Shown here in pieces: positions 16,551 to 34,142 of a DNA stretch of 64,000 nt. The first letter of the stretch is position 1; every line of letters starts with the position of its first letter. The position numbers and the translations under genes were made by a program. The stretch comes from Rhizobium sp. ZPR4 (GTDB taxonomy: Bacteria > Pseudomonadota > Alphaproteobacteria > Rhizobiales > Rhizobiaceae), in NCBI RefSeq assembly GCF_040215725.1, contig NZ_CP157968.1, positions 558,001-622,000 of the forward strand, in the 5' to 3' direction. The notes under the pieces were generated by a model. That model saw only the letters and a list, made by a program, of their open reading frames with translations, made no database searches and was not told the DNA's origin.

Positions 16551-17405
16551 TCAGCGCCCGCCCATGCCCGCATTGAGGGCGATGCTGTTGTAGATGAGCT
16601 TCTGCAGGATGATCGCGAGGAAGATGCCCGGAAGCATGGAAAGGGTGGCGCCGGCCATTAGGTAGTTCCATTGTGTGCCTTGCTGCGTCTGGAACAGGGT
16701 AAGACCGACGGGCAGGGTGGCATTGTCGGCACCGGTCATGACGATCAGCGGCCAGAGGAAATTGTTCCACTGCCCGATGAAGGTGAAGAGCGACAGAAGC
16801 CCGATCGCCGGCATGGACAGCGGCACGATGATGCTGACGAGAATGCGCCGGCGCGAAGCGCCGTCGATCCTTGCCGCCTCCTCGAGCTCCATGGGAATGG
16901 AGAGGAAGAACTGCCGCATCAGGAAGGCGCCGAAGGTGCCAAAGGAGATCGGCAGGATCACGCCGGGGAAAGTGTTGACCAGACCGAGCTTGTTGACGAT
17001 CAGAAACAGCGGAATGATCAGCATCAGCGGCGGCACCATCAGCGTGCCGATATAGCCGAGCAGCAGCGTTTCGCGCGCCCTGAATTTCAGCCGCGCGAAG
17101 GCGTAGCCGGACAGGCAGGAGACGACGACGGTGATGGCCGTCACGCAGATGGCGATAATGGCGCTGTTGAGGAAGAAGCGGCCGAAGGGCAGCTGGGTCC
17201 AGGCGGCGGCAAAGTTACCCCATTCGAAGACGTCGGGCAGGATACGCGGGGGTATTGCCGTCACCTCGGCATTGGAGCGCACCGCATTCGAGACCATCCA
17301 GAAGAACGGAAAGAGAAAGGCGATCGCGACGAGTGTGATTGCCAGGTGATTGACGATATCGAGCACCAGCTTCCGGCGTGCTCTGGCTTCGGATTTAAGC
17401 GTCAT
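16551..17405 (-). CDS. Sugar ABC permease (MalG/UgpE type)
   Basis: 284 residues with six membrane helices. The EAA loop that docks on the ATPase reads [20 protein letters not shown]. The C-terminus [12 protein letters not shown] is close to the family's usual ...GLTAGAVKG end. Its first codons overlap the 3' end of the preceding permease by 11 bases. Together they make the heterodimeric channel of a CUT1 carbohydrate importer. Confidence 0.93.
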
Positions 17406-18324: not shown

Positions 18325-18396
18325 GGGCCTCTCCTTTTCGGCAGTAGCGCTGCGGTCGAGCCGATGGCCCGACCGCAGGCCGGCCAGGTGCCCGGT

Positions 18397-19611
18397 CTAT
18401 GGTAGCTGGCTCTGAATATCGCTCAATACGCCTTCGGGCTTCGAGTCCCCCGTCAGTGCCAGCGGCACGTACTGCATCACCAGATTCTCGAACTGGTTCC
18501 ATTTCTCGTTGATGCGGAACGGCGTGGTATGGGCGAACATATATTCGAGCGTGTCGCGGGTGCCGCTGACATTCTTCGCCGCTCCGTCATACCAGGCGGT
18601 CTGCTGTGCAAGCCGGGCCGGCAGCGCGCGTCCGGCCGAACCGAGGATTTCGGCAGCCTTCGGGCCGGTCAGCACCTGTAGCGCCTTGAAGGCGGCATCC
18701 TTGTGCTGGCTGGTGGCGGAAATGCCCCAGCCGGAGCCTGCCGTAATGAAGCGCGAGGGACCGGTGCCGCGCGGCAGCGGCGCGATGCCGATCTTGAAGT
18801 TGACATTGGCCTGCCCGGTAATCAGCGACCAGGGACCGTCGATATACATGGCGACATTGCCCGAGGCGAAGCGGCCGCTTGCGGCGGAAGCATCGGCAGC
18901 GGAGGCAAAGACCGGCGAGAGTTTGTCCTTGGCGGTGAGATCGGCATACTTGCTGAAGGCATCGACAAAACCGGCATTGGTGAGGTCGAATTCATTGTCG
19001 GCGTTGAAATAATCCGCGCCAAGCGCGACGGGGCCGGCGATGAAATCGAAGGCCTGGGTTCCGTAGCCGTAGGTTCCGTCCTTGGTCAGCGCCTTGGCGT
19101 CGGCCTTGAAATCGTCGAACGTCCAGTCCTTGGCGGGCTCCTTCAAACCGGCAGCGGCGAATTTGTCGCGATTGTAGAAGACCATCCACGGGCCGACATC
19201 GTAGGGCAGGGCATAGAGCTTGCCGTCCTGTGAAAGGCCGGACATGATCGATGTCTCGAAGTCCGCCACCTTCACGTCGCTGCTTTTCACATAATCGTCG
19301 AGCGGCGTCAGGATCGAATAGAAATTCGGCATGCGCATCGACTGCATCGAAACGATATCGGCGACCTGTCCCGATGCCGCCAGAACCGGCAGTCGCGTCC
19401 AGTAATCCGTCCAGCCCGAAAGCTGCAGATTGACCTTGATGTTGGGATATTGCTTATTAACGAGATCGGCCAACTGCTGCCACAGCTCGGCATCGTTCGG
19501 CTGACCCCACATCTGCCAGGTCAGTGTCACGGGGGCATCCTGCGCCTTGGCGCCGATGCCGGGTAGTGAACTCGCCGCAAGGGCGGCGGCAAATATCAAT
19601 GAACGCTTCAT
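18397..19611 (-). CDS. Extracellular sugar-binding protein of a CUT1 ABC importer
   Basis: 404 residues with a signal peptide (1 to about 23, ending GAKA). The mature protein is a solute-binding protein family 1 type: it opens with PVTLTWQMWGQPNDAEL, has LYALPYDVGPWMVFYNRD in the first lobe, and AMYIDGPWSLITG and FITAGSGWGIS in the second. Length is typical. Given the operon, a fucosylated oligosaccharide or fucoside is the likely ligand, but nothing in the sequence fixes it. A pair of related 13-base direct repeats lies in its leader (19631-19658). Confidence 0.92.
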   Translation of the reverse strand: MKRSLIFAAALAASSLPGIGAKAQDAPVTLTWQMWGQPNDAELWQQLADLVNKQYPNIKVNLQLSGWTDYWTRLPVLAASGQVADIVSMQSMRMPNFYSILTPLDDYVKSSDVKVADFETSIMSGLSQDGKLYALPYDVGPWMVFYNRDKFAAAGLKEPAKDWTFDDFKADAKALTKDGTYGYGTQAFDFIAGPVALGADYFNADNEFDLTNAGFVDAFSKYADLTAKDKLSPVFASAADASAASGRFASGNVAMYIDGPWSLITGQANVNFKIGIAPLPRGTGPSRFITAGSGWGISATSQHKDAAFKALQVLTGPKAAEILGSAGRALPARLAQQTAWYDGAAKNVSGTRDTLEYMFAHTTPFRINEKWNQFENLVMQYVPLALTGDSKPEGVLSDIQSQLP

Positions 19612-19627
19612 GATTGTTCCTCCTCCT

Positions 19628-19658
19628 TAATGACTTTCATTACAGTGACGTTCATCAC
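19628..19658. promoter_or_regulatory. Repeat pair in the leader of the sugar-binding-protein gene
   Basis: TGACTTTCATTAC (19631-19643) and TGACGTTCATCAC (19646-19658) match at 11 of 13 positions and are spaced 15 bases apart. The first lies in the perfect palindrome TAATGA-CTT-TCATTA (19628-19642). They sit 17-47 bases before the ATG. This may be an internal operator or an mRNA element that raises binding-protein output relative to the rest of the operon; neither is proved. Confidence 0.35.
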
Positions 19659-19697
19659 TATCCGGACGCTCCCCTCCGGTTTGGTCTTGCGGGCCGT

Positions 19698-20483
19698 TCA
19701 GGCCGCGATCATGACCTCCAGGTCGGCGATCAGGCCGATCAGTTCGGTTCGCTGGCGCCGCCATGGATCAGGATCCTGTCCCGGCTCGAGAATGGCGGTC
19801 ATGCGCTGGAGAAAGTCCGGCGGCAGCCGCTCCAGTTCGGCCGCCATCGGCAGGTTCCAGCCGTCGCCCGGAAAATAGACCCGGTTGAAGGCAAAAACCG
19901 TCTGCAGGATGGCGTTGGCAAGCTTGCCCGTCAGCCCGACGAGAAAGACGAGATCGCGGCGAACGACCTTGCTCTCATAATGATAATCCCTGGCCCAATA
20001 GCGCAGGATATCCATGTACTGGCTGAGGACCGAGGCCCTCAGCGCTTCCGGGTACTGCGCCAGCTGCTGCTTCCAGCCGGTCAGCAAGCCACTGGGGTCG
20101 GCGATGATCTGCTGGCTGACAAGATCTGTCGGCAGGTGATAGCCCCAGATCGTCCATTCGAAGCTCTTCGGCACGACGATGCCGGCAAGCCAGGAGTCCA
20201 GATCGCGCTGCACGCCGGCATACCGCCGCATCCAGACGCCATCCATGCGGATGCCTTCTGCCTGCCAACTTTGCAGCGCGGCATCGAAGCGCCGCCACGC
20301 TGCGGTTTGGCGAACCTCCGGTCCGCGATAGGCATCGGCATAGACCCGGAAATCGAAATCCGATTGCGCATCCGACCGTCCCTTGCCGCGCGAGCCGGCG
20401 AGCGCGACGGCGCCATTGCCGTCTTCCGCCAGATCGGCGATCAAGGGGGTCATCGCGGCAATGAGTTCGGCTTCGCGGCTCAT
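19698..20483 (-). CDS. Nucleotidyltransferase-fold protein in the fucosidase operon
   Basis: 261 residues. The segment GAVALAGSRGKGRSDAQSDFDF (about 25-46) matches the pol-beta nucleotidyltransferase signature GS-x-x-x-G-x-x-x-x-SD-D-D, with the metal-binding Asp-x-Asp seen as DFDF. The remainder is helical and Trp-rich, similar to DUF4037-type proteins. Such folds transfer nucleotides to drugs, proteins or tRNA, and some are degenerate. It lies between the fucosidase (33 bases upstream) and the binding-protein gene. Its role in sugar use is unknown. Confidence 0.75.
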   Translation of the reverse strand: MSREAELIAAMTPLIADLAEDGNGAVALAGSRGKGRSDAQSDFDFRVYADAYRGPEVRQTAAWRRFDAALQSWQAEGIRMDGVWMRRYAGVQRDLDSWLAGIVVPKSFEWTIWGYHLPTDLVSQQIIADPSGLLTGWKQQLAQYPEALRASVLSQYMDILRYWARDYHYESKVVRRDLVFLVGLTGKLANAILQTVFAFNRVYFPGDGWNLPMAAELERLPPDFLQRMTAILEPGQDPDPWRRQRTELIGLIADLEVMIAA

Positions 20484-20516
20484 GACGGCACCGGGCGGCT
20501 GGGCTTCGTTCTCTCC

Positions 20517-21836
20517 TTAATCCTTGAGGATCAGCTCGATGACGGGGGTCACGACGTCGGGCTTCAGAACCGGCAGTTCGAGCGTCAGGATACCTTCGCC
20601 GACGGCGACGCCGATATTGGAATCGACCTCGGCATCCGGATCGAGCCAGTGCAGCTCGCTGGCATCGTGCAGGAATTGCGCATACTTGACCTTGCGCCCC
20701 AGCCCTTCGATGTGGATGTGGCGGAACGGCCAAGTCTGGATGTGCAGGTAGAGCCGGTTGCCCTTCTGGGTGAAGCGGCAACCGCTCGGCGCCTTATGGG
20801 TGGAAGGACCGGCGCCATAGATCGCGCGGCCGTTCAGCCGCAGCCATTCGCCATAGGTGTTGAGTGCCGTGATGGCGCGGGCGTCGAAGGTGCCGCGGCC
20901 GGTCGGGCCGACATTCATCAAAAGGTTGCCGCCGAGCGAAACCGTATCGACCAGGATGTTGATAAGCTGGCCGGCATCCTTCCAGCTGGTCTCGTCGCGA
21001 TAATAGCCCCAGGAGCCGCTGAAGGTGTGGCAGGCTTCCCAGCGCACCGGTAGGCCTGCGACGGTCGGAGCGACGCGTGGCGTATATTGTTCTGGCGTCA
21101 CCAGATCGGGCATGTGATCGGCGTCACGCGGCAGGTCGAGGCGATCGCCGACGATGATCTCAGGCTGCAGCTGGCGTACCAGCTTCATCAGGTCCTCGCT
21201 CTCCCAGTCGGCGCGGCCCTTGCCCGGTAGGCCCTTGTAGGTGCGGCGGGGATAGCTGAAATCGAACCAGATGACGTCGATCTTGCCGAAGTTCGTCAGG
21301 AGTTCAGTCACCTGGTCGCGCATATATTGCGCATAGCGCTTGACGTCGCGGCCCTCGTTGAGCTTTGCGGCATCGGGATGGTTGCGCTGCGGATGGTGCC
21401 CGTCGATCGGGAAATCCGGATGATGCCAATCGACCAGGGAATAGTAGAAACCGACCTTCAATCCCTCGGCGCGAAGCGCTTCGACGTAAGGGCCGATCAG
21501 ATCCTTGCCATAGGGCGTGTTGGTGACCTTGTAGTCGGTAACCTTGCTGTCCCACAGGCAGAAGCCCTCATGGTGCTTGGCGGTCAGAACCACATATTTC
21601 ATGCCGGCCTCGCGAGCGCGGCGTGCCCATTCGCGGGCGTCGTAGAGATCGGGATCGAAGTTGTCGAAATACTTCTGATAGGCCTCGGTGGTGAATTCCT
21701 CGCGGTTCTTCAGCCATTCGTGGCGTGCACCGAGAGCGTAAAGTCCGAAGTGGATGAACATGCCGAAGCGGTCGTGTCCAAACCATGTTTTGCCATCGGC
21801 CACATTCTGGCCGCCACTGATCGCTGCGTCGCTCAC
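20517..21836 (-). CDS. GH29 alpha-L-fucosidase, cytoplasmic
   Basis: 439 residues starting with GTG behind a good GGGAGGATAGT site. GH29 landmarks: WFGHDRFGMFIHFGLYALGA near the N-terminus, KYVVLTAKHHEGFCLWDS, GFYYSLVDWHHPDF, and IDVIWFDFSYP, whose Asp is the expected nucleophile. A C-terminal beta domain follows. There is no signal peptide, so fucosides must be imported first, which fits the ABC importer encoded downstream. It is the first gene of the operon, with a palindromic operator right upstream and a divergent LacI regulator. Confidence 0.93.
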   Translation of the reverse strand: MSDAAISGGQNVADGKTWFGHDRFGMFIHFGLYALGARHEWLKNREEFTTEAYQKYFDNFDPDLYDAREWARRAREAGMKYVVLTAKHHEGFCLWDSKVTDYKVTNTPYGKDLIGPYVEALRAEGLKVGFYYSLVDWHHPDFPIDGHHPQRNHPDAAKLNEGRDVKRYAQYMRDQVTELLTNFGKIDVIWFDFSYPRRTYKGLPGKGRADWESEDLMKLVRQLQPEIIVGDRLDLPRDADHMPDLVTPEQYTPRVAPTVAGLPVRWEACHTFSGSWGYYRDETSWKDAGQLINILVDTVSLGGNLLMNVGPTGRGTFDARAITALNTYGEWLRLNGRAIYGAGPSTHKAPSGCRFTQKGNRLYLHIQTWPFRHIHIEGLGRKVKYAQFLHDASELHWLDPDAEVDSNIGVAVGEGILTLELPVLKPDVVTPVIELILKD

Positions 21837-21861
21837 ACTATCCTCCCAAGTGTTAAGGCTT

Positions 21862-21879
21862 AATCGAACCGGTTCGATT
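21862..21879. promoter_or_regulatory. Perfect 18-bp palindrome, likely LacI-type operator
   Basis: AATCGAACCGGTTCGATT is its own reverse complement, with the central CG typical of LacI-family operators. It lies 25 bases before the fucosidase start and about 160 bases before the divergent lacI-type gene. The natural reading is that this regulator represses the operon, and perhaps itself, until an imported sugar releases it. Confidence 0.75.
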
Positions 21880-22039
21880 TAATCATCGATCCACTTGCCC
21901 TATATGTCAAGCGCGCTGTTGAAATCTCTTTCTGCATATTGCTTCATGGCCGACAAATGTTAGATTTATGACAGCGATTCATTGAGGAAGGTATCTTCGA
22001 TTGGAACGCTGAAGGCGATAGAAACGGTTCGAAAAATTC

Positions 22040-23047
22040 ATGGCCACAATTCGCGATGTCGCCAAACTCGCTGACGTATCCGTCTCGACGGTGTCGTTGG
22101 CTTTGAGCAATCCGGCGCGTGTCAGCCAGAAGACGCTGGAAAAAATTCGTCAGGCGATTGCCGCTGTCGGCTTCGTTGCCGATCCGCTTGCGCAAAGTCT
22201 GGCGCGCGGCCGCAGCCGCATGATCGGTTTCGTCGTCGGCAATGTCGGCAATCCATTTTTCGGGGATATCCGGCGTGAGCTGGAAAACTATGCGCTCGAC
22301 CACCAGCATTTCGTCGTCGTCACCGATTCCTCCGGCAAGACGGATCGCGAGAGAGCGATGGTCGAGCACCTGATCGGCCTCAAGACCGCGGGCCTGGCGC
22401 TTGCGCCGTCAGGCTACGACCAGGACTATCTTGACTTCATCGCCGGCTTGAACGTGCCGATCGTCTGTTTCGACCAGAAGGTCGCCGGCATCGAGCGCGA
22501 TTTCGTCGGCTCCGACAACTATCTCGCCGGCGCGATGTTGACCGAGCATCTCCTGCAGCTCGGCCACCGGCGCATCGCCTTCATCACCGGCCCGAGCCAT
22601 ATGCACACGGCAACGGAGAGATATCGTGGCTTTGCCGAGACTATGGCCAATGCCGGCATCGAGGTGAACCCGAACTTCATCGTCGACGGCCAGTTCACAC
22701 GCACGGCCGGCTATGAGGCAGCCATGCGCTTGCTGATCCAGCCCGAGCGCCCCACCGCGATCCTCGGCGCCAACAATACCGTGGCGCTTTCGGCGCTGCA
22801 GGCCATGCAGGAGCTAGGCTTCCGCTGTCCCGAGGACATCTCGCTCGCCATGATCGACAATGTGCAATGGAGCTCGGTCATCACGCCGCGCATCACCATG
22901 GTGGTTCAGGACACGCTGGCGCTCGGCGGCATCATCGCGCGCCGCCTGATGCACCGCATCACCAATCCGCAAGGTGCGGTCGAGCCGCCGCAGGATTTCG
23001 TGCTGACGCCGAAATTCGTTCCAGGCAATTCCTGCCGGAGAATTTAA
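22040..23047 (+). CDS. LacI-family transcriptional regulator
   Basis: 335 residues. The N-terminal HTH (ATIRDVAKLADVSVSTVSLA, about 2-21) and hinge helix (DPLAQSLARG) are canonical. The rest is a periplasmic-binding-protein-like sugar domain: MIGFVVGNVGNPFF, then GLALAPSGYDQDY, GHRRIAFITG and CPEDISLAMIDN. It is divergent from the fucosidase operon and is its likely regulator. Its 3' end faces bamA across 74 bases. Confidence 0.94.
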   Translation: MATIRDVAKLADVSVSTVSLALSNPARVSQKTLEKIRQAIAAVGFVADPLAQSLARGRSRMIGFVVGNVGNPFFGDIRRELENYALDHQHFVVVTDSSGKTDRERAMVEHLIGLKTAGLALAPSGYDQDYLDFIAGLNVPIVCFDQKVAGIERDFVGSDNYLAGAMLTEHLLQLGHRRIAFITGPSHMHTATERYRGFAETMANAGIEVNPNFIVDGQFTRTAGYEAAMRLLIQPERPTAILGANNTVALSALQAMQELGFRCPEDISLAMIDNVQWSSVITPRITMVVQDTLALGGIIARRLMHRITNPQGAVEPPQDFVLTPKFVPGNSCRRI

Positions 23048-23121
23048 AGCTCTGTGCATCGCACATTGGAGGCGCCGAAGACTTCTTGCGTCTTAGCAGC
23101 CGGGCGCTGATCCGGATTGCG

Positions 23122-25449
23122 TCAGAACTGGTTGCCGAAGCCGAAGCGGAAGTTTTCCACCTTGTCGTAGTCCTGCTTGAGGAACGGCACGGCGTAGCTG
23201 AGATTGATTGTGCCGAATGGTGACGCCCAGGTCAGTCCGATGCCGGCCGATGCGCGCAGCGCCGATCCATCGTGCAGGACATCACCATAAAGATTGGCAT
23301 CATTGCCATAGAGCGTTCCCGCGTCCAGGAAGACGGAGCTGCGGAAGCCGAGATCCTGCGGCATGCCCGGCGTCGGCATGCTCGTTTCCACCGAGGCGGT
23401 GAAGTATTTGGTTCCGCCGAGCGGATCGCCGTCGGACGTCCTTGGACCGATGCCCGCATCTTCAAAGCCTCTAATCTCGCTGCCGCCGATCATGAACTGA
23501 TCGAAAATGTTCAAGTCCTGACCATTTGTCGAAGTCATGTAGCCGGCACCAAGGGTTATCGAACCGATGATATCCTGTGAGTCCGAAAGTGTGTGGTAGT
23601 AGCGCGCCTTGCCGCTGAGTTTGTAATAGTTCGAGTCGCCGCCAAGACCGGCGACTTCCTGCGTGACCTTGGCGATGAAGCCGTCACGCGGTAGGTTCTG
23701 ATCGTCAAGAGTATTGTAGGTGAAGGTCTGGGAAACGCTCGATTGCGTCCAGGGACCGTTGTTGATCAGGTTCTGGTACGGTGCGGAGAGATTGTCCTGC
23801 CAGTCGCTCTCGCCAGTATAGGTAATCTGCTTGTAGGTGTAGCGAAGCGTCGTCGAAAGGTCCTCGGTGATAGGCGCCGTGATCCGCAGCGAGATACCTT
23901 CCTCGCCGTAGTCGTAGTAATCGCTGCTGGTGGTGACGCTCTTGAAAAGGTCGAAGCCGGCGGCGAGGCGTTCGCCAAGGAAATATGGCTCGGTGAAGGA
24001 GAGAGTGTAGGTTTGGCTTCCGCTCGTGCTCGCGCCTGCCGCAACCTTGATATACTGGCCGCGTCCGAGGAAATTCTTCTCCTCCACGGAGGCTTCCAGC
24101 AAAGGACCACCGTTGACGCCGACAGCGTAGCCCCCGCCGATACCGAAGGAGCCGGTTGGCTGATCTTCGACATCGACGATGATGACGACCCGATCCGGAG
24201 CGCTGCCAGGACGTGTCGAGATCTTCACCGACGTGAAATAGCCGAGCGCATCCAGGCGGCGTTTGGCGCGCGCAATCATCTGCTCATTGAAGGCATCCCC
24301 TTCGTTGAGGTCGAATTCACGCCGAATGACATAGTCCCTCGTTCGTGTGTTGCCGCGAATTTCGATGCGCTCCACATAGGCGCGTTCACCCTGATCGACG
24401 ATGTATTCTATCGAGACGGAATGATCTTCGGGGTTGCGATTGCCGCGCGGCGTTACCTTGGCAAATGGATAGCCGGCTGCCTCTATGCGTTTCGAGATTG
24501 CGTCAATCGACTTCTGGATATCCTCGGCATTATAGGTATCGCCTTTGCGCGTGATGACGAGGCTTTTCAGGTCGTCGGCATTGATACCCTGCACGGTTGA
24601 TGTCACTGAAATATCGCCATAGCGATATTTCTCGCCCTCATCGACAACGAAGCTGACGTCGTAGCTGTTCGTCGCGCTGTCGAAGGTTGCATTATCGGAC
24701 ACCAGCCTGAAATCGACAAATCCGTGATCGTAATAGAATTTACGAAGTGCGTCCTCGTCGGCGTCTTTCTTCGTTTCGCTATAAATATCCTTGCGCGTCA
24801 GAAACGACAGGAAAGTGGATTTCTTTGTGCTGATCACCGCGGCGAGACGACCGCCGCTGAAAGCATGATTTCCGGAGAATGTCAGCTTGCTGATTGTCGT
24901 GCGGTCGCCTTCGTTAATGACGAAAGCGAGATTGACCCTGTTCTTCGCGATGTTGACGACTTGCGGCGTCACTTGGACATTGTTGCGCCCGATCGCGGCA
25001 TAGGCATCCTTGATCGACTTTATGTCGTCTTGAACCTGACTTTCACTGTATGGGCCAGCCGCCTTGGACTTAACCAGCTCGGCCAATTTATCGTCCTTTA
25101 TCTTCTTGTTCCCGTTGAATACAACTGCATTGATGAGATTGTTCTCGTGTACGGAGATAACGAGACTATGGCCTTCTACCGATATATGTACATCGGAAAA
25201 ATAGCCAGTTGCATAGAGTTGTTTGATCGATTGGTCGATATCCGCATCTGAAAAGCTCTTGCCAGGAGCGATCGTTATATTGTCCTTTACTGCGGTCGGT
25301 CCAACGCGCTCGGCACCAACCACCCGTATATCACTTACCATAGCTGCCTGCGCAGACAGAGGCGCGGCTATGGCTGTGCTTATGAATGCTAAAATGGCAA
25401 TTGTCGAATTTGAACGTTTTAACTTTGACCGCGGTAAATCAGAGTTCAT
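23122..25449 (-). CDS. bamA: BamA-family outer-membrane assembly factor
   Basis: 775 residues. A signal peptide (about 12-36, ending AQAA) leads into five POTRA repeats (about 37-430; each ends in strands such as VSFVVDEGEKYRYG and IEYIVDQGERAYVERI). A 16-stranded barrel follows, with TEPYFLGERLAAG and the loop-6 motif IRGF (about 658-661; Val/Ile-Arg-Gly-Phe/Tyr is family-wide). The last residue is Phe, as required for barrel insertion. BamA folds outer-membrane proteins. It is complete but lacks the usual rseP/lpxD neighbours and looks less GC-rich than the flanks. It lies next to an lptD gene, so it may be a second copy. The ATG at 25449 has AAGG upstream. Confidence 0.9.
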   Translation of the reverse strand: MNSDLPRSKLKRSNSTIAILAFISTAIAAPLSAQAAMVSDIRVVGAERVGPTAVKDNITIAPGKSFSDADIDQSIKQLYATGYFSDVHISVEGHSLVISVHENNLINAVVFNGNKKIKDDKLAELVKSKAAGPYSESQVQDDIKSIKDAYAAIGRNNVQVTPQVVNIAKNRVNLAFVINEGDRTTISKLTFSGNHAFSGGRLAAVISTKKSTFLSFLTRKDIYSETKKDADEDALRKFYYDHGFVDFRLVSDNATFDSATNSYDVSFVVDEGEKYRYGDISVTSTVQGINADDLKSLVITRKGDTYNAEDIQKSIDAISKRIEAAGYPFAKVTPRGNRNPEDHSVSIEYIVDQGERAYVERIEIRGNTRTRDYVIRREFDLNEGDAFNEQMIARAKRRLDALGYFTSVKISTRPGSAPDRVVIIVDVEDQPTGSFGIGGGYAVGVNGGPLLEASVEEKNFLGRGQYIKVAAGASTSGSQTYTLSFTEPYFLGERLAAGFDLFKSVTTSSDYYDYGEEGISLRITAPITEDLSTTLRYTYKQITYTGESDWQDNLSAPYQNLINNGPWTQSSVSQTFTYNTLDDQNLPRDGFIAKVTQEVAGLGGDSNYYKLSGKARYYHTLSDSQDIIGSITLGAGYMTSTNGQDLNIFDQFMIGGSEIRGFEDAGIGPRTSDGDPLGGTKYFTASVETSMPTPGMPQDLGFRSSVFLDAGTLYGNDANLYGDVLHDGSALRASAGIGLTWASPFGTINLSYAVPFLKQDYDKVENFRFGFGNQF

Positions 25450-25577
25450 CTACGCTTTTACCTTGCATTTCCAAATGGAGCTGTTCCGCGGGTTTTTCAG
25501 AGAAATGAATATCCATGCGGTCGGAGAATCTGCCTGTGACGTAGAAAGAGCACTATCACTTCTCCGTGCTCTTCGGT

Positions 25578-25597
25578 GTTAAGTAATGTTAAGTAAT
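25578..25597. promoter_or_regulatory. Tandem 10-bp direct repeat upstream of bamA
   Basis: GTTAAGTAAT occurs twice in direct succession, 129-148 bases before the bamA start, in the 297-base gap between lptD and bamA. OmpR/PhoB-family regulators typically bind direct repeats with a 10-11-base period, and such a regulator is encoded nearby. A weaker tandem of the same period lies before lptD (28451-28470). The rest of the gap shows nothing else notable. Confidence 0.4.
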
Positions 25598-25746
25598 ATT
25601 TCGATTGGGTCTCCGTCTTGCCGATCGCGCGCGGAACCCCGAAGTACATCGGGATCCCGGCATGTCGACCAAAACTGCTTCATCGCAAGGCGGTTCGCGA
25701 TCTTGTCTGAAGCGATCCGAAAGCTGCGGATCAAATCTGAAATGAT

Positions 25747-28107
25747 CTAATTGCCGCCGAGCTTGACTTCCCCCAGCGTGCGGAACGTCAGGTGCAGCAT
25801 TATGGACCAATCGACGCCCGTCGTGCTGGAGGTATCCTTTTTCCAGTCGTAAACTAGGCTGGCAGTCGTGCATTCATCGGAATAGGTTACGCCGAAGTCG
25901 TGTTCGCTGAGATCCTTGGCGCGTAGATCATATCCGAGCGTCGTGTTGACTGACCATTGATCCGAGAGTTTCAATTTCACCTGCGGTTGGAGCTCATCCT
26001 CATTGGTGGGTATGTCGTAATCGGGCTGAGCCTCGATATGCGTATAGGTCAACTGCGTATCGAGAATCGGCGTGACATAACCAATCGTCGTATCGCCGCG
26101 CTTTAGCGCAAAATTGTCGTGGTCGAGCCGATAGGACGTCGAAACTGAAATGCCGTGCGGCATGGTTATGCCGAACATCGTCACATAGTCCGATCGTGCC
26201 GTTTCGAGCCCCGATTCGAGGCCGGCGCCGACCAGGTCCGGCGTTGCAAATGAATTCATTCCCATGAGCTGGTAGGACTGGCCAACGACACTGTCCAGTT
26301 TGTAGCCGCTGTCGAAGCTGCCGGTGTAACGCATGCCGACATTGGCACGCGTTCCCCCTTCCACGCGGTCGAAGCCGGAGAATTTATCCCGGTCGAAGAG
26401 GTTCGTCGCATCGAATACGAAACTTTGAGCATCCTCGTTCGGCAACTGACCGGCAAGCTGCTCGTCGGGTCGGAGATAAATCTGCGCTATGGGTTCGAAG
26501 ACCTGCGTGGAGTGCTCCGTGGTCGCCAGGATCGGATATTTGGCCTCTAGCCCGGCCGTCAGCATTTTCCGCGCGGCAGCGCCATTGTCGTCGTAGTTAC
26601 CGGCATAGACATATGAGGGGCTGATGGAGTTCGGCCCATCCATCCCAAGAGCCATCGTATCTCCACGGGCGGCAAGCAGCGGCGTCAACTCCAGCCCCTG
26701 AGGCGTCACGAAGGAGCGCTGCCACTGCATTTCGGTCGTAAGCCGCGCATAATCGCCAGTAAGCCCGAGAAAGCGGTCTGAGTTGTCGGGATTGACGACG
26801 ACGTCCGCGGTGCTGCGCGAGACATTCGTGAAATTGCTGGTCAGCGACAGTTCTCCACCGAGAACAGGCTGTGGCGCGATCGCGTGATAATCGATCACCG
26901 GATAGGCGACGGCCTGCTGCTTTTGCAAGGTGCTGCCGGTTGTGGCGTCCTGCTCATTGTAGTAGGCGAACCGCATATCGAAAAAGTTCCGTTTGCCGAT
27001 GCCGGTCAAGTAGGCCTGATTGGTATGTGTGGCTTGATTGAGCCCCTCGATATTATAGGTTCGGGCAAAGTCGTTGTCGCTCTGCGCCATGACATCCCAG
27101 CCGAAGGTCCAGCGTGGGTTGATCCTGAAATCGCCTTTGGAAGCTATGAGCGTCCTGAGCTTGGCATTCACATCGGTGGTTCCGGTGTCAAACGCACCCG
27201 GGTCGGCCTGATCGATGAGGGCTGCGCGCAGATCATAGGTGCCGTTTTCAAGCCGCTGGCGAAACTCGCCCTGCAATAGCAAACCCTGATTACTATATCC
27301 TGTCGCGGTAACCGTCGCGTCCATGCTCGGCGAAATCACATAGTAATAGGGGATTGCCGCGCCAAAGCCGAGATTCTGGGAGACGCTGAAGGTTGGAAAC
27401 AGAAAGCCCGACTTTCTCTTTACGGTATTGTCGGGCACGGTCATCCAGGGAATATAGGCGATCGGCTGGCCGAAAAGTTCAAGCCTTGCATGCTCCAGTC
27501 TTATCGTATGAGTGATGCCGTTCTGGATAATCCTCTCTGCCTTCACCTGCCACAGCGGAGCGCGGCCCTGTTCCGAGCACGGAGCGCAGGCGGTGTAGAC
27601 GCCTTTGGTCAGGATAACCTTGGAGCCGCCGACGCGGTCGCCCTTGATTGCCACCATTCTCGTATTGTCGGGCATTTCAACCCGCAGAGCCTCGATAAAT
27701 CCATTGGAGAAATCATTGGTCACGTCCATTCTGTCACCGTAGGTACGGTTGCCATCAGGGGTGATCAATTCCACATTTCCTGTCGCAGTCATCCTTTTTG
27801 TGATCTGGTTGTAGTCGACCTGATTGGCTACCAATTTATAGCCGCCATAGTGGATTTGAACTGCGCCGCGTGCGGTTATTATCTGCGTATCTTTGTTGTA
27901 AATAGCCTCGTTCGCCTGTAAGAGCAGCTTCGTCCCATCCGGAATCTTAACGTTTGTCGTGGTCGGTAGTGTCGACGTCTGACCTGCCGGTTGTCGCTGA
28001 AATTGCCCTTGCGCAAGTGAATGATCACTGGCTGCACATGTGGCGATGATGGTGAACGACCAAGCCATAGCGGCTCGGTTTGAGGACAACGGAGCTATGC
28101 GTCTCAA
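25747..28107 (-). CDS. lptD: LptD-family LPS-assembly outer-membrane protein
   Basis: 786 residues. After an export signal (about 1-33, ending SLAQ) comes an OstA/LptA-like beta-jellyroll (about 50-160, with LLLQANEAIYNKDTQIITA and MTATGNVELI), then the large LptD barrel domain. The CAPC pair at about 170 and a later Cys in SDEC may form the disulfides typical of LptD. LptD inserts lipopolysaccharide into the outer leaflet. The start is uncertain: TTG 28107 has GGAG upstream, while the first ATG (28068) has no clear site. No surA/pdxA/ksgA neighbours are present, so this looks like an extra copy. It is on the same strand as bamA, 297 bases upstream. Confidence 0.88.
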   Translation of the reverse strand: MRRIAPLSSNRAAMAWSFTIIATCAASDHSLAQGQFQRQPAGQTSTLPTTTNVKIPDGTKLLLQANEAIYNKDTQIITARGAVQIHYGGYKLVANQVDYNQITKRMTATGNVELITPDGNRTYGDRMDVTNDFSNGFIEALRVEMPDNTRMVAIKGDRVGGSKVILTKGVYTACAPCSEQGRAPLWQVKAERIIQNGITHTIRLEHARLELFGQPIAYIPWMTVPDNTVKRKSGFLFPTFSVSQNLGFGAAIPYYYVISPSMDATVTATGYSNQGLLLQGEFRQRLENGTYDLRAALIDQADPGAFDTGTTDVNAKLRTLIASKGDFRINPRWTFGWDVMAQSDNDFARTYNIEGLNQATHTNQAYLTGIGKRNFFDMRFAYYNEQDATTGSTLQKQQAVAYPVIDYHAIAPQPVLGGELSLTSNFTNVSRSTADVVVNPDNSDRFLGLTGDYARLTTEMQWQRSFVTPQGLELTPLLAARGDTMALGMDGPNSISPSYVYAGNYDDNGAAARKMLTAGLEAKYPILATTEHSTQVFEPIAQIYLRPDEQLAGQLPNEDAQSFVFDATNLFDRDKFSGFDRVEGGTRANVGMRYTGSFDSGYKLDSVVGQSYQLMGMNSFATPDLVGAGLESGLETARSDYVTMFGITMPHGISVSTSYRLDHDNFALKRGDTTIGYVTPILDTQLTYTHIEAQPDYDIPTNEDELQPQVKLKLSDQWSVNTTLGYDLRAKDLSEHDFGVTYSDECTTASLVYDWKKDTSSTTGVDWSIMLHLTFRTLGEVKLGGN

Positions 28108-28721
28108 ATGCGGTACTCCGCAAATAGCGCGAGAAATGCTGGTATCTCTTTGTGTATCTCGTTCCGCCTGCGTGCGATAGCGATTCCTTTAGGAGATATG
28201 TTCTTTCTTGACTGACTACTTGTCATTCCGTGGTGAGATAATGGAGAAATACTTTTGATTTCCGCCGTGCTTCGATCAGTTGATAGCCATTGAATTACCT
28301 GAACCTTACAATCGAATTCTGCTTGACTATCCGGGCTTGTACCTGCCCGGCCTTCCTGCTGGGATACTGCAACACTATGCGTAGCTGGACGCACGATTTC
28401 GGACTCCATTGCCATTTGGCAAGGAATAGACGAAGATAGCTACGCTTTGGATTAAGTTGCGTTAATTTATGTTTCTGTATATTTCTGCTTATTTATTTTA
28501 TGTTTCTCTATGTAAATTTATGCAATTTCCGAAACAAAGTGACAGTATTGCCAACTGCGTGGACGGTACCTGCCACAAGCTCGACAAAATTAGGTGCAGG
28601 CTGCCTAATGTACAATACACCTTGTGCGGGAACAGCCGAGCTGGCTCGAAAGAACATTAAACGCATGCCTTGAGAGCATCGAAATGTTCCCGAATTGATC
28701 TGAGCTGCAGTAAAGGTGCCC
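28108..28721. promoter_or_regulatory. AT-rich divergent region between lptD and the two-component system
   Basis: 614 bases. The part from about 28440 to 28530 is markedly AT-rich for this genome. It holds a 15-base direct repeat, TTTATGTTTCTGTAT (28466-28480) and TTTATGTTTCTCTAT (28497-28511), and a tandem decamer ATTAAGTTGC/GTTAATTTAT (28451-28470) that matches the bamA-upstream tandem at 14 of 20 positions. A 103-codon minus-strand frame (28415-28104) runs into the lptD start but has weak coding character. The region must carry promoters for both directions. Confidence 0.5.
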
Positions 28722-29462
28722 ATGAATACCATTAGAACTGCAAACAAGGAGCAGAAGCAGTCGATCCTTCTGGTGGAGGACGATAGCGAGATCGCGAAGA
28801 TACTGTCGGAAGTTCTGGCCGAAAACGGCTTTAACAGTATGTGGGCCGCCTCCGCCGAGAAGATGGATGCGTATCTGGAAGACAATACGGCCGATCTTGT
28901 CATTCTCGACGTGATGTTGCCCGGCGAGAGCGGATTGAGCATCTGCCGCCGGTTGAGAGCGACGTCATTGGTCCCGATCATCATGCTGACGGCGCGTTCG
29001 GAGGATGTGGACAGGATCATAGGGCTGGAAATCGGCGCCGACGATTATGTCACCAAACCTTTCAACCATCGAGAGCTTCTTGCGAGAATCCACGCACTCC
29101 TGAGACGTTCCCATATCAGCAGACCGCCAAACGATCCTTTCCATTCCGCCTTCCGTTTCGAGGGATGGCGCGTCGAGCCGGGGCAGCGGCAGTTGTTCAG
29201 CCCGGAGGGCGCCCGCGTGACGCTGACAAGCACGGAGTTCGACCTTCTTCTGGCGTTCTGTCAGAACTCAAGGCGTATTCTGACGAGGGAGCAGCTTCTG
29301 GAGCTCACGCACAGCGGCATAGCCGGCCCGATCGGCCGCAGCGTTGATGTCCATATCAGTCGAATACGCCAGAAGATCGAACCCGACCTGCGCTCTCCGA
29401 CCTTCATCAAAACCGTTCGCTTGGGAGGCTACGTCTTTACGCCCAGCATAGAGATATTATGA
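28722..29462 (+). CDS. OmpR-family response regulator
   Basis: 246 residues from ATG 28722, with AAAGG five bases upstream; a GTG two codons earlier is the alternative. Receiver domain: acidic pair in LLVEDDSEI, phospho-acceptor Asp63 in VILDVMLPGESG, Thr in MLTARSEDVDR, and Lys in YVTKPFNHREL. The C-terminal winged helix has the OmpR pattern: LTSTEFDLLLAF, then REQLLELTHSG, then DVHISRIRQKIE and VRLGGYVF. It is translationally coupled to the sensor kinase by an ATGA overlap. Lying divergent from lptD-bamA, it is the obvious candidate regulator of those genes. Confidence 0.94.
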   Translation: MNTIRTANKEQKQSILLVEDDSEIAKILSEVLAENGFNSMWAASAEKMDAYLEDNTADLVILDVMLPGESGLSICRRLRATSLVPIIMLTARSEDVDRIIGLEIGADDYVTKPFNHRELLARIHALLRRSHISRPPNDPFHSAFRFEGWRVEPGQRQLFSPEGARVTLTSTEFDLLLAFCQNSRRILTREQLLELTHSGIAGPIGRSVDVHISRIRQKIEPDLRSPTFIKTVRLGGYVFTPSIEIL

Positions 29463-30841
29463 CGGGGTATCTTCGTTTCATCAATCACAAGTCCATTGTC
29501 ACGCAGATGATTGCGGTTGTGCTTGCAGCCGTTGTTCTGGGGACGGTATGCACCTCGGTGGCGTTTCTCTTTCTCTCTTATGGATGGCATAATGAGACCA
29601 ATCTCAAGCTTGCGGCGGCCTCGGCGGCCGCGCGCATAGCCACGATCGCCGACGACGCCCGCCAGAGCGCGTCACTCGAGGAGCTGAAAAAGACCATCAA
29701 GGCTTCGCGATGGCTTGAGATGCATATAGAAATCGTTCCGAGTGCCGTGTTTTTCTCCAGCCCCGAATTTACCTCGGCAGAAAAGCGCACCGAGCAGGAA
29801 AGCGGCTTTGCCGACGAACTGCGAAGCGAGCTTCTCTCCCATTGGAACCTGTCGTCATCGGATATCTCGATCTCCACGGGCAACTCGGTCGTCGTCAAGA
29901 TCAACAATCAATACGCTTTGATTTTCCAGACGACGCACCGCCCGCCGATGCAGCGGTTCATCTTCATACAGCTTGGCTTCGTCGTTGCGACGGTCATGAT
30001 CGTGGTGCTTTTCCTGGCCGTTTACATCATCAAGCGGCTTATGGCGCCACTCTCGTCGATAGCAGCGGCGGCTGACGCTCTTGGCCACGTGTCGACCCAG
30101 GCCCAGCCGATCAACGATGCAGGGCCGCAGGAAGTCATTCAAGTGGCGAGGGCTCTCAATCATCTTCATGGGCGTCTGCAGTCCCTGATAGAAGAACGGA
30201 CCCGCATGCTGGCTGCAATCAGCCACGATCTTCGCACTCCGCTGACGCGCCTGCGCCTGAAGCTTGAGCGCGGAGTCCAGACCGGGAAACTGGGCAGCAT
30301 GATCGATGAAATCGAAATCATAGACAACATGATCTCGGAAACGCTGCATTATCTGCGCGAGCAGAACGACCGGCGCGCCGGATATGTCATAGACATGCCG
30401 AGCCTCATTCAGACCATCTGTAACGAGTTTGCGGATTTAGGCTTCGATATACGATATCAGGGGCCTGCCAGAATGGCTTACTTCTGCGAGGAATTGGGAA
30501 TGAGACGCGCGCTCTCCAATGTGATCGATAATGCGATCAAGCATGGGACAGAGGTCGTCGTACTGCTTGAAAGCCGAGGTGCAAGCGGCTTTGAAATCCG
30601 GATATCCGACAACGGCCCCGGTATTCCGAAAGAACACCGCGCCAAGGTGTTGGAGCCTTTCTATGTTGCAGACGATGCGCGATCCCTGATCGGAAGAAGC
30701 GGATTTGGATTGGGTCTTTCCATCGTACGCGATGTCGTATCCCGTCACCGCGGAACCATTTCCTTTGCAGACAACTCGCCTTCGGGGCTCGTCGTGCGGT
30801 TGTCCTTCAATCAATCGCGATCGGCCGAATTTGCAAGCTGA
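29459..30841 (+). CDS. EnvZ-type sensor histidine kinase
   Basis: 460 residues. Helix 1 (about 16-40), a periplasmic sensor of about 125 residues, helix 2 (about 168-192), a HAMP linker, then the HisKA box SHDLRTPLTRLRL with phospho-acceptor His256. ATP-binding boxes: N (RALSNVIDNAIKHG), G1 (ISDNGPGIP) and G2 (GFGLGLSIV). All catalytic motifs are intact. The sensor domain resembles no family I can name. It should phosphorylate the overlapping OmpR-type regulator in response to an envelope or pH-type signal (inference). Confidence 0.94.
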   Translation: MTGYLRFINHKSIVTQMIAVVLAAVVLGTVCTSVAFLFLSYGWHNETNLKLAAASAAARIATIADDARQSASLEELKKTIKASRWLEMHIEIVPSAVFFSSPEFTSAEKRTEQESGFADELRSELLSHWNLSSSDISISTGNSVVVKINNQYALIFQTTHRPPMQRFIFIQLGFVVATVMIVVLFLAVYIIKRLMAPLSSIAAAADALGHVSTQAQPINDAGPQEVIQVARALNHLHGRLQSLIEERTRMLAAISHDLRTPLTRLRLKLERGVQTGKLGSMIDEIEIIDNMISETLHYLREQNDRRAGYVIDMPSLIQTICNEFADLGFDIRYQGPARMAYFCEELGMRRALSNVIDNAIKHGTEVVVLLESRGASGFEIRISDNGPGIPKEHRAKVLEPFYVADDARSLIGRSGFGLGLSIVRDVVSRHRGTISFADNSPSGLVVRLSFNQSRSAEFAS

Positions 30842-31081
30842 ACCTTTGACGGATGCGACCGGCCAGTCTGCAACATGTATCTCGTACGGCGTCATCACTC
30901 CCACACGCGCGACGTCGGGGAGGGTGGTGGATGCAATATTCTGACAGAAATGTCCGCCTTGCCGACCCAGATGCGGTTCCGTGAAATTAGGCCCACAGAT
31001 TGCGATTTAGTCTCGCGCAAGGTCTGGTTGCGATGGTCCATGTGGGGCGAATATCGGTGAACTGCGCTGTGGGGGCGATCA

Positions 31082-33286
31082 ATGATTTCGACGTATCTCG
31101 GCTACGTGTCCGCGACAAAGGACATGGCATCAACGCTTGCGCGCATCGCCAAGCAAGCGACGGTCAAGAGCGACCAGCAATATTACGATGCGCATATCGG
31201 CAAGGTTAAGAATGTCGATGAGTTTCTGAGCGACTACAAGCTGTACAGCTATGCGATGAAGGCCTATGGCCTTGAGGACATGACTTATGCCAAGGCCTTC
31301 ATGAAAAAGGTCCTGGCCAGCGATCTTAGCGATACGAGCAGCTTTGCAAACAAACTGACGGACAGCCGCTATCGGCAATTCGCCGCTGCTTTCAATTTTG
31401 GCGCTACCTCAAAAAATCAATCGGCTCAGAGCGATTCCCAGAAGAGCGATACGATCGGGCTTTATGAGCAATCCTTCGCCAATGAAACGGCCTTGGCCAA
31501 GAAGGAAAGCAAGTTCTACGATAGCTGGATCGACAAAGTGTCGAATGTCGACGATATCGTCAACAGCAGCAGGATGACGGACTATATCCTGCGGGCGCAC
31601 GGTTTAAACCCGGACAATATCTCGAAGGCGTTCCTGAAGTCGGTTCTGACCGGCGATGTCAACGATCCGAACAGCTTCGTCAACACGGCGAGCAATTTCT
31701 CGACGGCATCGGCGCAGCCGACATACAAGCTGATCGCGTCGCAGTTCAGCTTCAATGCCGACGGAACGCTTTCCGGTGCGACTGCGCAGACGACGGAGCA
31801 GAAGGAGGCCATGATCTCGCGATATGATAGCATGGTTCCGAGCCTCTTGACCTCGGCTGCGGCCACCAGCAATGACGACTACTATCGTCAGGCGATCACG
31901 AAAGTTCAATCGATCAGCGATATTACCGGCGATAACAGGCTGTTTTCCTATATAAAGACCGCATTCAATCTCAATCCCAAGCTCACTCCGGTCCAATTCA
32001 ACCTCGCCTTCACGAACTCCGATTATGCCGCCGTGACCGGAATGGCGGACATGGTTTCGCACTTCCAGTTTGCGTCCGACGGAACGCTGCCGACCGGTCA
32101 GCCGGCGCAGACACAACAGGCTATCGACGATATCTCGACCAAATATATAAACGAGGCCAAAGGTGCGAAACAGGCCCTGTTCGACGACGCCGAGAAACAC
32201 TACAAGACCGCGGTCGGCGAGATAAAGACGATCGCGGACTTCTTTGCCGCCAACGACACGAAGAACAAGAATCTTCCAACCATAGAGGACATGGCGCTTC
32301 GCGCCTTTGGGATTGACAAGAATGAGGTCTCCAGGGATCAGCTGCGCAAGATCCTGGAGAGCGATCCTTATGACAGCAAGAGCTACGTCAATTCGTTGAA
32401 AGACGACAGATTCGTCGAGCTTGCCAAAGCATTCAATTTCGACAGCGAGGGCAATCTGCGGGCGCCGGTCGTGCCCCTGTCGCAGACCTCGATCAACAGC
32501 CTGATTTCCGCCTATTCGAAGTCGAAGATCTTCGGGTTGACCGGCGAGATGCGGGACAAGGCAGTTAAGGATGCGAAGGACGCGGCGACCGAATTCAGCA
32601 AGTCGATCGCCAAGATCAAGACCGTCGACGAACTCCTGGCCGACAAGAAGCTGACGGAGTTTATCCTCGTTGCGAACAATATCGATCCCAAGACGGTCGA
32701 CAAGAATACCTTGAAGAAGGCCTTCACCGCAGACCCCGAGGATGCCAAGGGTTTTCTGAATACACAGGCTGGCCAGCAATTCAAGGCGATGGTGAACGCC
32801 TTCAATTTCGACGCCAAGGGAAATCTGACCACAGCCAAGATCGAGCCGGGACAGAACAAGGGTGCGCGTCTCGCCACCAACGATCTCTATCTTCACCAGA
32901 CGCTCGAAACGCAGCAGGGGGGCTCCAATGAGGGCGTTCGCCTCGCGCTCTACTTTCAGCGCAAGGCGCCGCAGGTCAATTCCGTCTACGATATCATGTC
33001 GGATCCGGCGCTCTACAATGTGATCAAGACGACCTATTCGCTGCCCGCATCCATGTCGAACATGGACGTGACCCGCCAGGCGGCGATGCTCGAAAAGTTG
33101 TTCCCGATTAAGGATTTGCATGATGCCGGCAAGGTGAACAACCTGCTCAAGCGCTTCTCGGCCGTCTATGATGCGGCAAATGGCGGGAGCACGACTTCCC
33201 CAGCATCCGCCATTCTCACGCGAGGCTCCAAGACGAGCATGAGCGCGGACCTCATGCTCTCGATAGCCCAACTCAGATCGCGATAA
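31082..33286 (+). CDS. Large DUF1217 repeat protein
   Basis: 734 residues starting at ATG 31082 behind a GGGGG site. About six copies of a 100-residue unit can be read, each with a helix, an A-x-G-[LI] turn, a K-x-(V/I)-L strand and an (F/A)xFNF motif: YGLEDMTYAKAFMKKVL/AAAFNFG, HGLNPDNISKAFLKSVL/SQFSFN, FNLNPKLTPVQ/SHFQF, FGIDKNEVSRDQLRKIL/AKAFNF, NNIDPKTVDKNTLKKAF/VNAFNF and YSLPASMSNMDV. This is the DUF1217 repeat known from rhizobial flagellar clusters, where the protein is shorter. No signal peptide is evident. It lies 240 bases after the sensor kinase and may be part of the same regulon. Its function is not known. Confidence 0.8.
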   Translation: MISTYLGYVSATKDMASTLARIAKQATVKSDQQYYDAHIGKVKNVDEFLSDYKLYSYAMKAYGLEDMTYAKAFMKKVLASDLSDTSSFANKLTDSRYRQFAAAFNFGATSKNQSAQSDSQKSDTIGLYEQSFANETALAKKESKFYDSWIDKVSNVDDIVNSSRMTDYILRAHGLNPDNISKAFLKSVLTGDVNDPNSFVNTASNFSTASAQPTYKLIASQFSFNADGTLSGATAQTTEQKEAMISRYDSMVPSLLTSAAATSNDDYYRQAITKVQSISDITGDNRLFSYIKTAFNLNPKLTPVQFNLAFTNSDYAAVTGMADMVSHFQFASDGTLPTGQPAQTQQAIDDISTKYINEAKGAKQALFDDAEKHYKTAVGEIKTIADFFAANDTKNKNLPTIEDMALRAFGIDKNEVSRDQLRKILESDPYDSKSYVNSLKDDRFVELAKAFNFDSEGNLRAPVVPLSQTSINSLISAYSKSKIFGLTGEMRDKAVKDAKDAATEFSKSIAKIKTVDELLADKKLTEFILVANNIDPKTVDKNTLKKAFTADPEDAKGFLNTQAGQQFKAMVNAFNFDAKGNLTTAKIEPGQNKGARLATNDLYLHQTLETQQGGSNEGVRLALYFQRKAPQVNSVYDIMSDPALYNVIKTTYSLPASMSNMDVTRQAAMLEKLFPIKDLHDAGKVNNLLKRFSAVYDAANGGSTTSPASAILTRGSKTSMSADLMLSIAQLRSR

Positions 33287-33329
33287 TGCTTTTCCGCCCG
33301 GAGTTACGCAAAAACAGAGGCTCTAGCGC

Positions 33330-33347
33330 CACTGCGTGATCGCAGTG
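33330..33347. terminator. Terminator-like hairpin between convergent genes
   Basis: CACTGCG-TGAT-CGCAGTG is a perfect seven-base stem with a four-base loop, placed between the convergent DUF1217 gene and the SDR gene. On the plus strand it is followed by a T-rich stretch (TCTTCGTCTTT), so it can end the DUF1217 transcript. The stem is short, which keeps confidence moderate. Confidence 0.5.
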
Positions 33348-33365
33348 ATGTCTTCGTCTTTGATG

Positions 33366-34142
33366 CTATTGGTGCTGCAATACGCTCAGGCCTCCGTCCA
33401 CGGTCAGGCAGGCGGCATTCATGAAGGGACATTCATCCGAGATCATGAAGACCGCGGCCATGGCGATCTCCTGGGGAGTGGCGATGCGGCCGCCCGGATG
33501 CAGCTTCATCGTCTCGGCCTTCGCCTTTTCCGGATCGGGAAAGCTGTTCCAGTAATCGATGGCCTTTTGCGTTGCGACGTAGCCGGGCGCGAGCGCGTTC
33601 ACGCGCACGTTCTTCGAGGCATATTCGATCCCCAGCGATTTGGTCATGCCAAGAAGCGCATGCTTGGCAAGCGGGTAGGGGAAGGTGTGCGGAATGATCG
33701 TGAAGGCGTGGGTCGAGGCGATGTTGAGTATGACGCCGCCGCCCCGGGCGATCATCTCGGGCAGCACGGATCGGCAGCAATTCCAGGCGCCCTTGAGGTT
33801 GATGTCGAAGCAGCGCTGCCAATCCTCGTCCGTTGCCTGCAGCGGCTCGGCAAAGACGTTGACGCCGGCATTGTTGACGAGTGCATTGATGCTGCCGATT
33901 TCGCCGGCCGCCCTGGCCACGGCGGCGCGCACGACTTCGGCATCGGTGATGTTGGCGGCTTGATAGCCAAGGTTAGCGCCATCTTCCCTGAGCTTGCCGG
34001 CGCTTTGTTCCAGCAGAGCTTCGTCGCGATCGATAAGGAAGAGGCTCGCATCTTCGGCCGCGCACGCCTCGGCGATGGCCAGCCCGATCCCTTGCGCGGC
34101 TCCGGTAATGAAGATCCGTTTTCCAGAAAGGCGGTTTGGCAT
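33366..34142 (-). CDS. SDR-family sugar-type dehydrogenase
   Basis: 258 residues. NAD(P)-binding ITGAAQGIGLAIA near the N-terminus, NNAG at about residue 90, and an active-site pattern Ser...Tyr-x-x-x-Lys: IASTHAF followed by YPLAKHALLG. The C-terminal VDGGLSVL is typical of classical SDRs. Asp (LIDRD) after the second strand favours NAD. It is 19 bases downstream of an aldose epimerase gene and divergent from an AraFGH-type importer, suggesting oxidation of the imported aldose. Sugar identity is inferred only. Confidence 0.88.
   Translation of the reverse strand: MPNRLSGKRIFITGAAQGIGLAIAEACAAEDASLFLIDRDEALLEQSAGKLREDGANLGYQAANITDAEVVRAAVARAAGEIGSINALVNNAGVNVFAEPLQATDEDWQRCFDINLKGAWNCCRSVLPEMIARGGGVILNIASTHAFTIIPHTFPYPLAKHALLGMTKSLGIEYASKNVRVNALAPGYVATQKAIDYWNSFPDPEKAKAETMKLHPGGRIATPQEIAMAAVFMISDECPFMNAACLTVDGGLSVLQHQ

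Follow-up and report, generated by a model that had tools for sequence, protein, structure and literature searches.

A candidate accessory cassette pairing second BamA and LptD genes with their own two-component system in Rhizobium sp. ZPR4

BamA- and LptD-type genes, encoding two essential outer-membrane assembly barrels, lie side by side in a 64-kb stretch of DNA (hereafter the window) from Rhizobium sp. ZPR4, and the locus raises the question of whether they are the copies on which the cell depends or a second set with its own switch. The window spans positions 558001–622000 of contig C2 (1.82 Mb), probably a secondary replicon, of a 7.74-Mb genome (G000) in 7 contigs, the largest of which is C1 (4.06 Mb). 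Four intact genes occupy window positions 23122–30841: the minus strand carries bamA2 and lptD2, and the genes for a response regulator and a histidine kinase diverge from them. These genes probably constitute an accessory cassette, i.e., a spare, switchable set of the two barrels. Sequence comparison shows the duplication, the linkage, the co-occurrence with the kinase, the conserved boxes, purifying selection, and repeated loss; regulator binding, the direction of regulation, the signal, and the function of the cassette are what we infer. The features of the locus are as follows.

23122–25449, minus strand: bamA2, second BamA, 775 amino acids (aa), five POTRA domains and an Omp85 barrel, IRGF motif kept, C-terminal Phe
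25578–25597, minus strand: tandem 10-bp box upstream of bamA2, ATTACTTAAC-ATTACTTAAC toward bamA2, about 130 bp before the start codon
25747–28107, minus strand: lptD2, second LptD, 786 aa, TTG start
28451–28470, minus strand: tandem 10-bp box upstream of lptD2, ATAAATTAAC-GCAACTTAAT toward lptD2, between the divergent lptD2 and regulator genes
28572–28591, no strand assigned: conserved 20-bp block between lptD2 and the regulator gene, upstream of the latter; minus-strand sequence AATTTTGTCGAGCTTGTGGC
28716–29462, plus strand: OmpR-family response regulator of the cassette, Response_reg and Trans_reg_C domains
29459–30841, plus strand: EnvZ-like histidine kinase, HAMP, HisKA, and HATPase_c domains

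The four genes and their canonical counterparts

A previous sequence-only reading, which described complete BamA- and LptD-type genes adjacent on one strand beside a divergent system of the OmpR/EnvZ type, is confirmed by protein models. BamA2 scores 771.5 bits against the equivalog model TIGR03303 (cut-off 297) and contains five POTRA stretches plus Omp85. A (V/I)RGF motif in loop 6 and a C-terminal phenylalanine are hallmarks of BamA; in BamA2, IRGF is located at 659–662, within predicted loop 6, and the C-terminus reads NQF. LptD2 contains PF04453, the LptD C-terminal barrel domain (236 bits; cut-off 22.4), and its C174, C177, and C746 are invariant across 36 aligned LptDs; the cysteines of LptD form disulphides between the N-domain and the barrel. 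The kinase has two hydrophobic segments, at about 19–37 and 168–190, bracketing ~126 residues presumed to be a periplasmic sensor. Both signaling proteins fall below the NCBIfam equivalog cut-offs (regulator versus OmpR, 232 bits, cut-off 331; kinase versus EnvZ, 180.5 bits, cut-off 415).

Whole-genome searches located the other copy of each barrel gene on C1, by lpxD and surA as the earlier reading had anticipated. The other BamA (71% identical to BamA2) is encoded at C1:1316900 between an rseP-like gene and lpxD/fabZ, and the other LptD (65% identical to LptD2) at C1:828757 between surA-like/pdxA and an lptG-like gene, the names of these flanking genes being taken from translated open reading frames with no database search. 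The usual neighbors are absent from the window pair and present at the canonical loci (ksgA was not looked for), and the possibility that bamA2 and lptD2 are the sole essential copies is ruled out because of the copies on C1. The searches also gave a distant TamA-like protein (25% identity), encoded at C1:2923006. For BamD (PF13525), the genome has a strong match and a weak one, and LptE (PF04390) gave zero matches genome-wide for either LptD in a search that was positive in 3 of 14 control genomes. The lower GC content ascribed to the pair is real but modest: bamA2 and lptD2 have 54.1% and 55.6%, respectively, versus 59.2% for the window, and the canonical copies themselves have 57.4% (bamA) and 57.7% (lptD). 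GC content is lowest between the genes, at 49.2% and 44.6% in the two intergenic stretches, and is a weak sign of foreign origin. Rfam gave no match within window positions 21000–34000 at gathering thresholds.

Distribution, descent, and loss

Among 148 genomes of the genus, orthologues of LptD2 (79–100% identity) are found in six: the window's own genome, R. rhizogenes 17-2069-2c (G258), R. hainanense CCBAU 57015 (G222), R. multihospitium HAMBI 2975 (G250), R. tropici PTD1 (G336, listed with 9% contamination), and R. lusitanum Opo-234 (G242). The same six contain the BamA2 orthologues (81–100%; the next BamA is 73% identical) and the kinase orthologues (61–100%; every other listed match is at most 42%), the kinase search having scored the best 11 first-look candidates per genome, such that a missed orthologue is possible though unlikely. 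The bamA2, lptD2, and kinase orthologues are always adjacent in the six carriers, and the response regulator adjoins the pair in all five of the other loci examined. The flanks of the cassette in G258, G222, and G250 are those of the window; in G336 and G242, the order and orientation of the four genes are kept, the neighbors are different, and a resistance-nodulation-division (RND) efflux pump adjoins the cassette. Within the window, a 734-aa protein of four DUF1217 stretches (31082–33286) adjoins the cassette and is 84–95% identical in cassette-less relatives too, and the bamA2 side (17395–23047) contains an alpha-L-fucosidase gene, ABC-transporter-like genes, and a gene for a LacI-family regulator, a cluster shared with three relatives from which the cassette has been lost.

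In a protein database, six clusters for LptD2 and nine for BamA2 reach at least 76% identity, with the next below at 68% and 72%, respectively, among the best 120 listed. Two LptD matches each were obtained in 13 other genomes of a family-level draw; re-examination of five of these and of G298 revealed four split alignments, a contig break (G298), and a weak second match (G054). Seven cassette-less genomes of the genus have one or two Omp85 matches beyond the usual two. The cassette was found in none of 72,556 plasmid records at megablast sensitivity, in a search that may leave out records very close to the genome of the window. The sole plasmid record with any piece is p11515TR-B of Rhizobium sp. 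11515TR, which contains a 398-bp bamA2 fragment. Separately, the conjugative S. meliloti plasmid p_3 has an LptD-like gene (L215 9001–11308; 52.6% identity) among insertion sequences, divided over two frames at about residue 629; within 9 kb of it, there is no bamA2 match, and the regulator match is partial and just 32% identical.

The accessory copies form clades of their own, as the sequence-only reading had proposed to check. In the LptD tree of 36 rows, they form one clade (100/100) with a stem of 0.31, which sits in a 24-row group (100/100) of six accessory and 18 canonical rows, the latter here labeled the R. tropici group, with the R. leguminosarum group outside; the attachment of the clade is weakly supported (54/3), and the chosen outgroup is not one side of a branch. 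The BamA tree agrees, with five distinct accessory rows united at 100/100 and canonical separated from accessory copies at 78/57. Judging from substitution rates, bamA2 and lptD2 are under purifying selection: dN/dS is 0.04–0.08 for both genes in all computable pairs except the near-identical G000–G258, in which lptD2 gives 0.22 on few changes and bamA2 has a dN of zero, and lptD1 is similar to lptD2. In most pairs, dS is higher for the accessory than for the canonical copies (e.g., 0.83 for bamA2 and 0.36 for bamA1 in G000–G336), the exceptions being G000–G258 and, for lptD, G000–G222; versus G242, accessory dS is mostly saturated.

Three cassette-less genomes (G213, G326, and G277) have the left flank and the DUF1217 gene in common with the window, and their empty sites carry scars of bamA2: approximately 100 bp of the 3′ end in G213 and a 31-bp piece in G326, both joined at about window position 30994, and approximately 16 bp in G277, joined at 30929. 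A fresh insertion of the cassette at an empty site is ruled out because of these scars. Since the two junctions are not derivable from each other, they indicate that the cassette was once at this site and has been lost from it at least twice. Five other examined genomes have the DUF1217 gene alone in common with the window, one of them with its right-hand neighbors too.

Control regions and divergence of the barrels

OmpR boxes are laid out as tandem 10-bp units, and the repeats reported upstream of both barrel genes are real, perfect at bamA2 and weaker at lptD2. Apart from GTTAAGTAAT, repeated at 25578–25597 and detected at the overlapping offsets 25577 and 25578, the 64 kb contain no 10-mer perfectly repeated in tandem, and one such repeat arose in 1 of 20 mononucleotide shuffles of the window. 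A pattern covering both boxes, derived from these same sites, has two window matches versus none in 100 shuffles. With 17 of 20 columns invariant across all six loci (mean, 5.0), the bamA2 box is the best-conserved 20-column stretch between bamA2 and lptD2. The related lptD2 box (16 of 20; mean, 4.1) is second in its region to the 28572–28591 block, which lies nearer the regulator (18 of 20 invariant in all six) and is perhaps the regulator's own promoter or leader. Across the 148 genomes, ANTTWACRYNACTTAAY has 14 exact matches, 12 of which are the two promoters in each of the six cassette genomes, the remaining two being one each in G237 and G303; a reversed-pattern control gave seven matches, of which cassette genomes account for three. 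Each box is oriented toward the gene that it would control, as activation would predict. Within the two-component system, the DNA-binding domain of the regulator is best conserved (87% in G242) and the kinase sensor least (47%).

A wide regulon is not supported: at one mismatch, just two further sites recur across the cassette genomes. One (G000:C1:1743488; L126 1501–1517), in all six, has as neighbors a PAS-like gene and an acyltransferase-like gene, the latter at its 3′ end; the other (G000:C3:1198630; L132 1501–1517), in four of the six, lies between genes for a response regulator and an RND membrane-fusion-like protein, with another ACTTAAC half-site alongside, and paralogous regulators may share this half-site. 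The names of genes beside these boxes were read from the DNA, with no database search.

Specialization is clear in LptD2 and weak in BamA2. A site in LptD was counted as a fixed difference if the six accessory copies all share one residue and 16 canonical copies are at least 90% constant for another. Such sites account for 28 of 67 classifiable sites in LptD2 651–786 versus 31 of 379 elsewhere (p 7.5e-11) and, in a region chosen post hoc (703–777), for 21 of 41 versus 36 of 399 in 55–702 (odds ratio 10.6, p 2.5e-10). Those of 651–786 concentrate in the last five predicted strands, which are 38% identical to canonical LptD, with no preference for strands over loops (19 of 28 fixed differences in predicted strands versus 26 of 39 unchanged sites). 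Over 711–770, the copy in the window shares 90% and 85% identity with two other accessory copies. A domain swap as the source of this C-terminus was considered and rejected, the 18 non-accessory LptDs compared being just 30–50% identical over 711–770 and the accessory copies sharing it. One side of the lateral gate of LptD is its last strand, which carries MLH or MAH in all six accessory rows, and the same position in 114 canonical rows reads GAR (95), AAR (7), GAK (5), SAR (3), or GGR (2), with no match in two. In BamA, the last nine residues read FRFGFGNQF in all five accessory rows versus FRFGIANQF in all 30 canonical rows, and strand 1 has one fixed difference in nine residues. The predicted extracellular loops and the strands of BamA2 are 73% and 71% identical to the canonical protein, respectively. 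Fixed differences make up 6 of 25 sites in the last two strands (last 33 residues) versus 49 of 477 (p 0.045, post hoc), and no region is enriched outside the N-terminal 34 residues, where enrichment is partly an artefact of canonical rows cut from local alignments. Strand limits are approximate, the structure model being moderate for LptD (mean pLDDT 64, pTM 0.44) and fair for BamA (76, 0.48). In the available part of a study of E. coli LptD assembly, the third-to-last strand and the final periplasmic loop contact BamD, and the last two strands and the final extracellular loop contact BamA (PMC6887485).

Proposed function and its alternatives

As an accessory cassette, the four genes would act as follows. 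The kinase would sense an envelope condition through its presumed periplasmic sensor, and the cassette-specific regulator would bind the tandem boxes and switch on lptD2 and bamA2 together. BamA2 may then join the existing BAM machinery, for which one strong BamD match is present, adding or substituting BAM capacity, and LptD2 may supply a second lipopolysaccharide (LPS) translocon with altered final strands and a changed gate. The likely use would be to maintain the insertion of outer-membrane proteins and LPS when BamA1 or LptD1 is inhibited or overloaded; candidate triggers are natural BamA- or LptD-directed antimicrobials, bacteriocins, phage, and host or soil envelope stress, comparable to BaeSR-controlled BamK in Klebsiella. 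A more specific form, proposed tentatively, is that one two-component system swaps in a matched BamA2 and LptD2, with the LptD2 gate rebuilt and its BAM-recognition strands changed, as an alternative outer-membrane assembly line on demand.

The concentration of fixed differences in LptD2 703–777, in strands conserved among accessory copies yet far from the canonical ones, could also arise if the cassette were not a backup but a dedicated LPS-export line, with LptD2, its lateral gate changed, specialized for another LPS form or growth phase and BamA2 kept mainly to assemble this LptD, in which the strands that contact BAM are altered. The distinctive ends of the accessory LptDs and BamAs fit such a line, as does the contact of the corresponding E. 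coli LptD end with BAM (PMC6887485, in its available part). However, strand 1 of BamA2, the holder of the client's C-terminal strand, is nearly unchanged, the post hoc enrichment over the final two strands of BamA is weak, and the cassette lacks an LPS-modification gene; this explanation appears rather unlikely. That the pair replaces two exposed essential receptors in order to escape phages, bacteriocins, or contact-dependent inhibition is improbable: the available parts of three sources describe BamA and LptD as receptors or targets (PMC6240691, PMC12685063, PMC13059784), but the BamA2 loops are not hyperdiverged, and the LptD2 fixed differences are not concentrated in loops. An old duplicate on a secondary replicon, with little function, drifting and now being lost, would account for the patchy presence, the scars in three genomes, the fragment on p11515TR-B, and the weaker constraint on bamA2 described below. 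It is the least probable of these explanations: the genes are open in all six loci, dN/dS is far below 1, lptD2 is close to lptD1, and the boxes and the kinase-regulator-target linkage are retained even in G242, where the cassette is diverged and its surroundings differ.

Several points weigh against a spare, switchable set. The specificity of ANTTWACRYNACTTAAY is partly circular, since it was written from these sites. In the closest pairs, dN/dS is 0.04–0.05 for bamA2 versus 0.004–0.02 for bamA1, and patchy presence with repeated loss also fits a set of genes that is only weakly useful. Taken alone, the LptD2 changes do not indicate a stress backup, and surface-epitope escape is not favored for BamA because the modeled BamA2 loops are no more diverged than the strands, unlike in BamK. 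The sequence-only reading, which proposed a second, conditionally expressed pair that changes the outer membrane, is partly supported, namely by the second copies, their own clades, the restriction of kinase orthologues to the same six genomes, and the conserved boxes; binding of the boxes by the regulator, conditional expression, and a changed outer membrane are what we infer.

Accessory BamA paralogues and their two-component control are already known. In Klebsiella pneumoniae, which offers the closest precedent, as described in the available part of the source, baeS mutations switch on BamK, rendering bamA dispensable and conferring resistance to a BamA-directed peptide (PMC13059784). BamK resembles BamA2 in being a paralogue besides canonical bamA (62.7% identical there, 71% here), in two-component control, suggested here by sequence, and in a near-consensus regulator site upstream. 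By contrast, BamK is controlled by the general envelope-stress system BaeSR, whereas bamA2 has its own kinase and regulator; the loops of BamK diverge, whereas those of BamA2 do not stand out; and no LptD partner is mentioned in that part of the source, whereas bamA2 is paired with lptD2 (PMC13059784). The Pseudomonas bamA2 is likewise a genus-limited, patchy second BamA at a second locus, but comprises recent, highly similar duplicates, with no lptD or two-component system named in the available parts (PMC4104836, PMC6240691). According to the available part of a 2014 Omp85 survey, highly similar BamA paralogues may permit expression under specific conditions or specialization for clients (PMC4104836). 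The cassette pair shares domain architecture and tandem 10-bp boxes with OmpR/EnvZ and differs in scoring below the equivalog cut-offs and in having kinase orthologues in just 6 of 148 genomes. In the open-licence literature, no accessory LptD, no bamA and lptD pair, and no such pair with its own two-component system was found.

BamA and LptD, which are essential and exposed at the cell surface, rank among the leading antibiotic targets. If the proposed reading is true, a natural cassette that duplicates both and brings its own switch would offer an existing route around both targets, and it would serve as a natural experiment on whether BAM machines can specialize for one client. The cassette is small, intact, and lost in relatives, so removing its genes from a soil Rhizobium would test its role directly.

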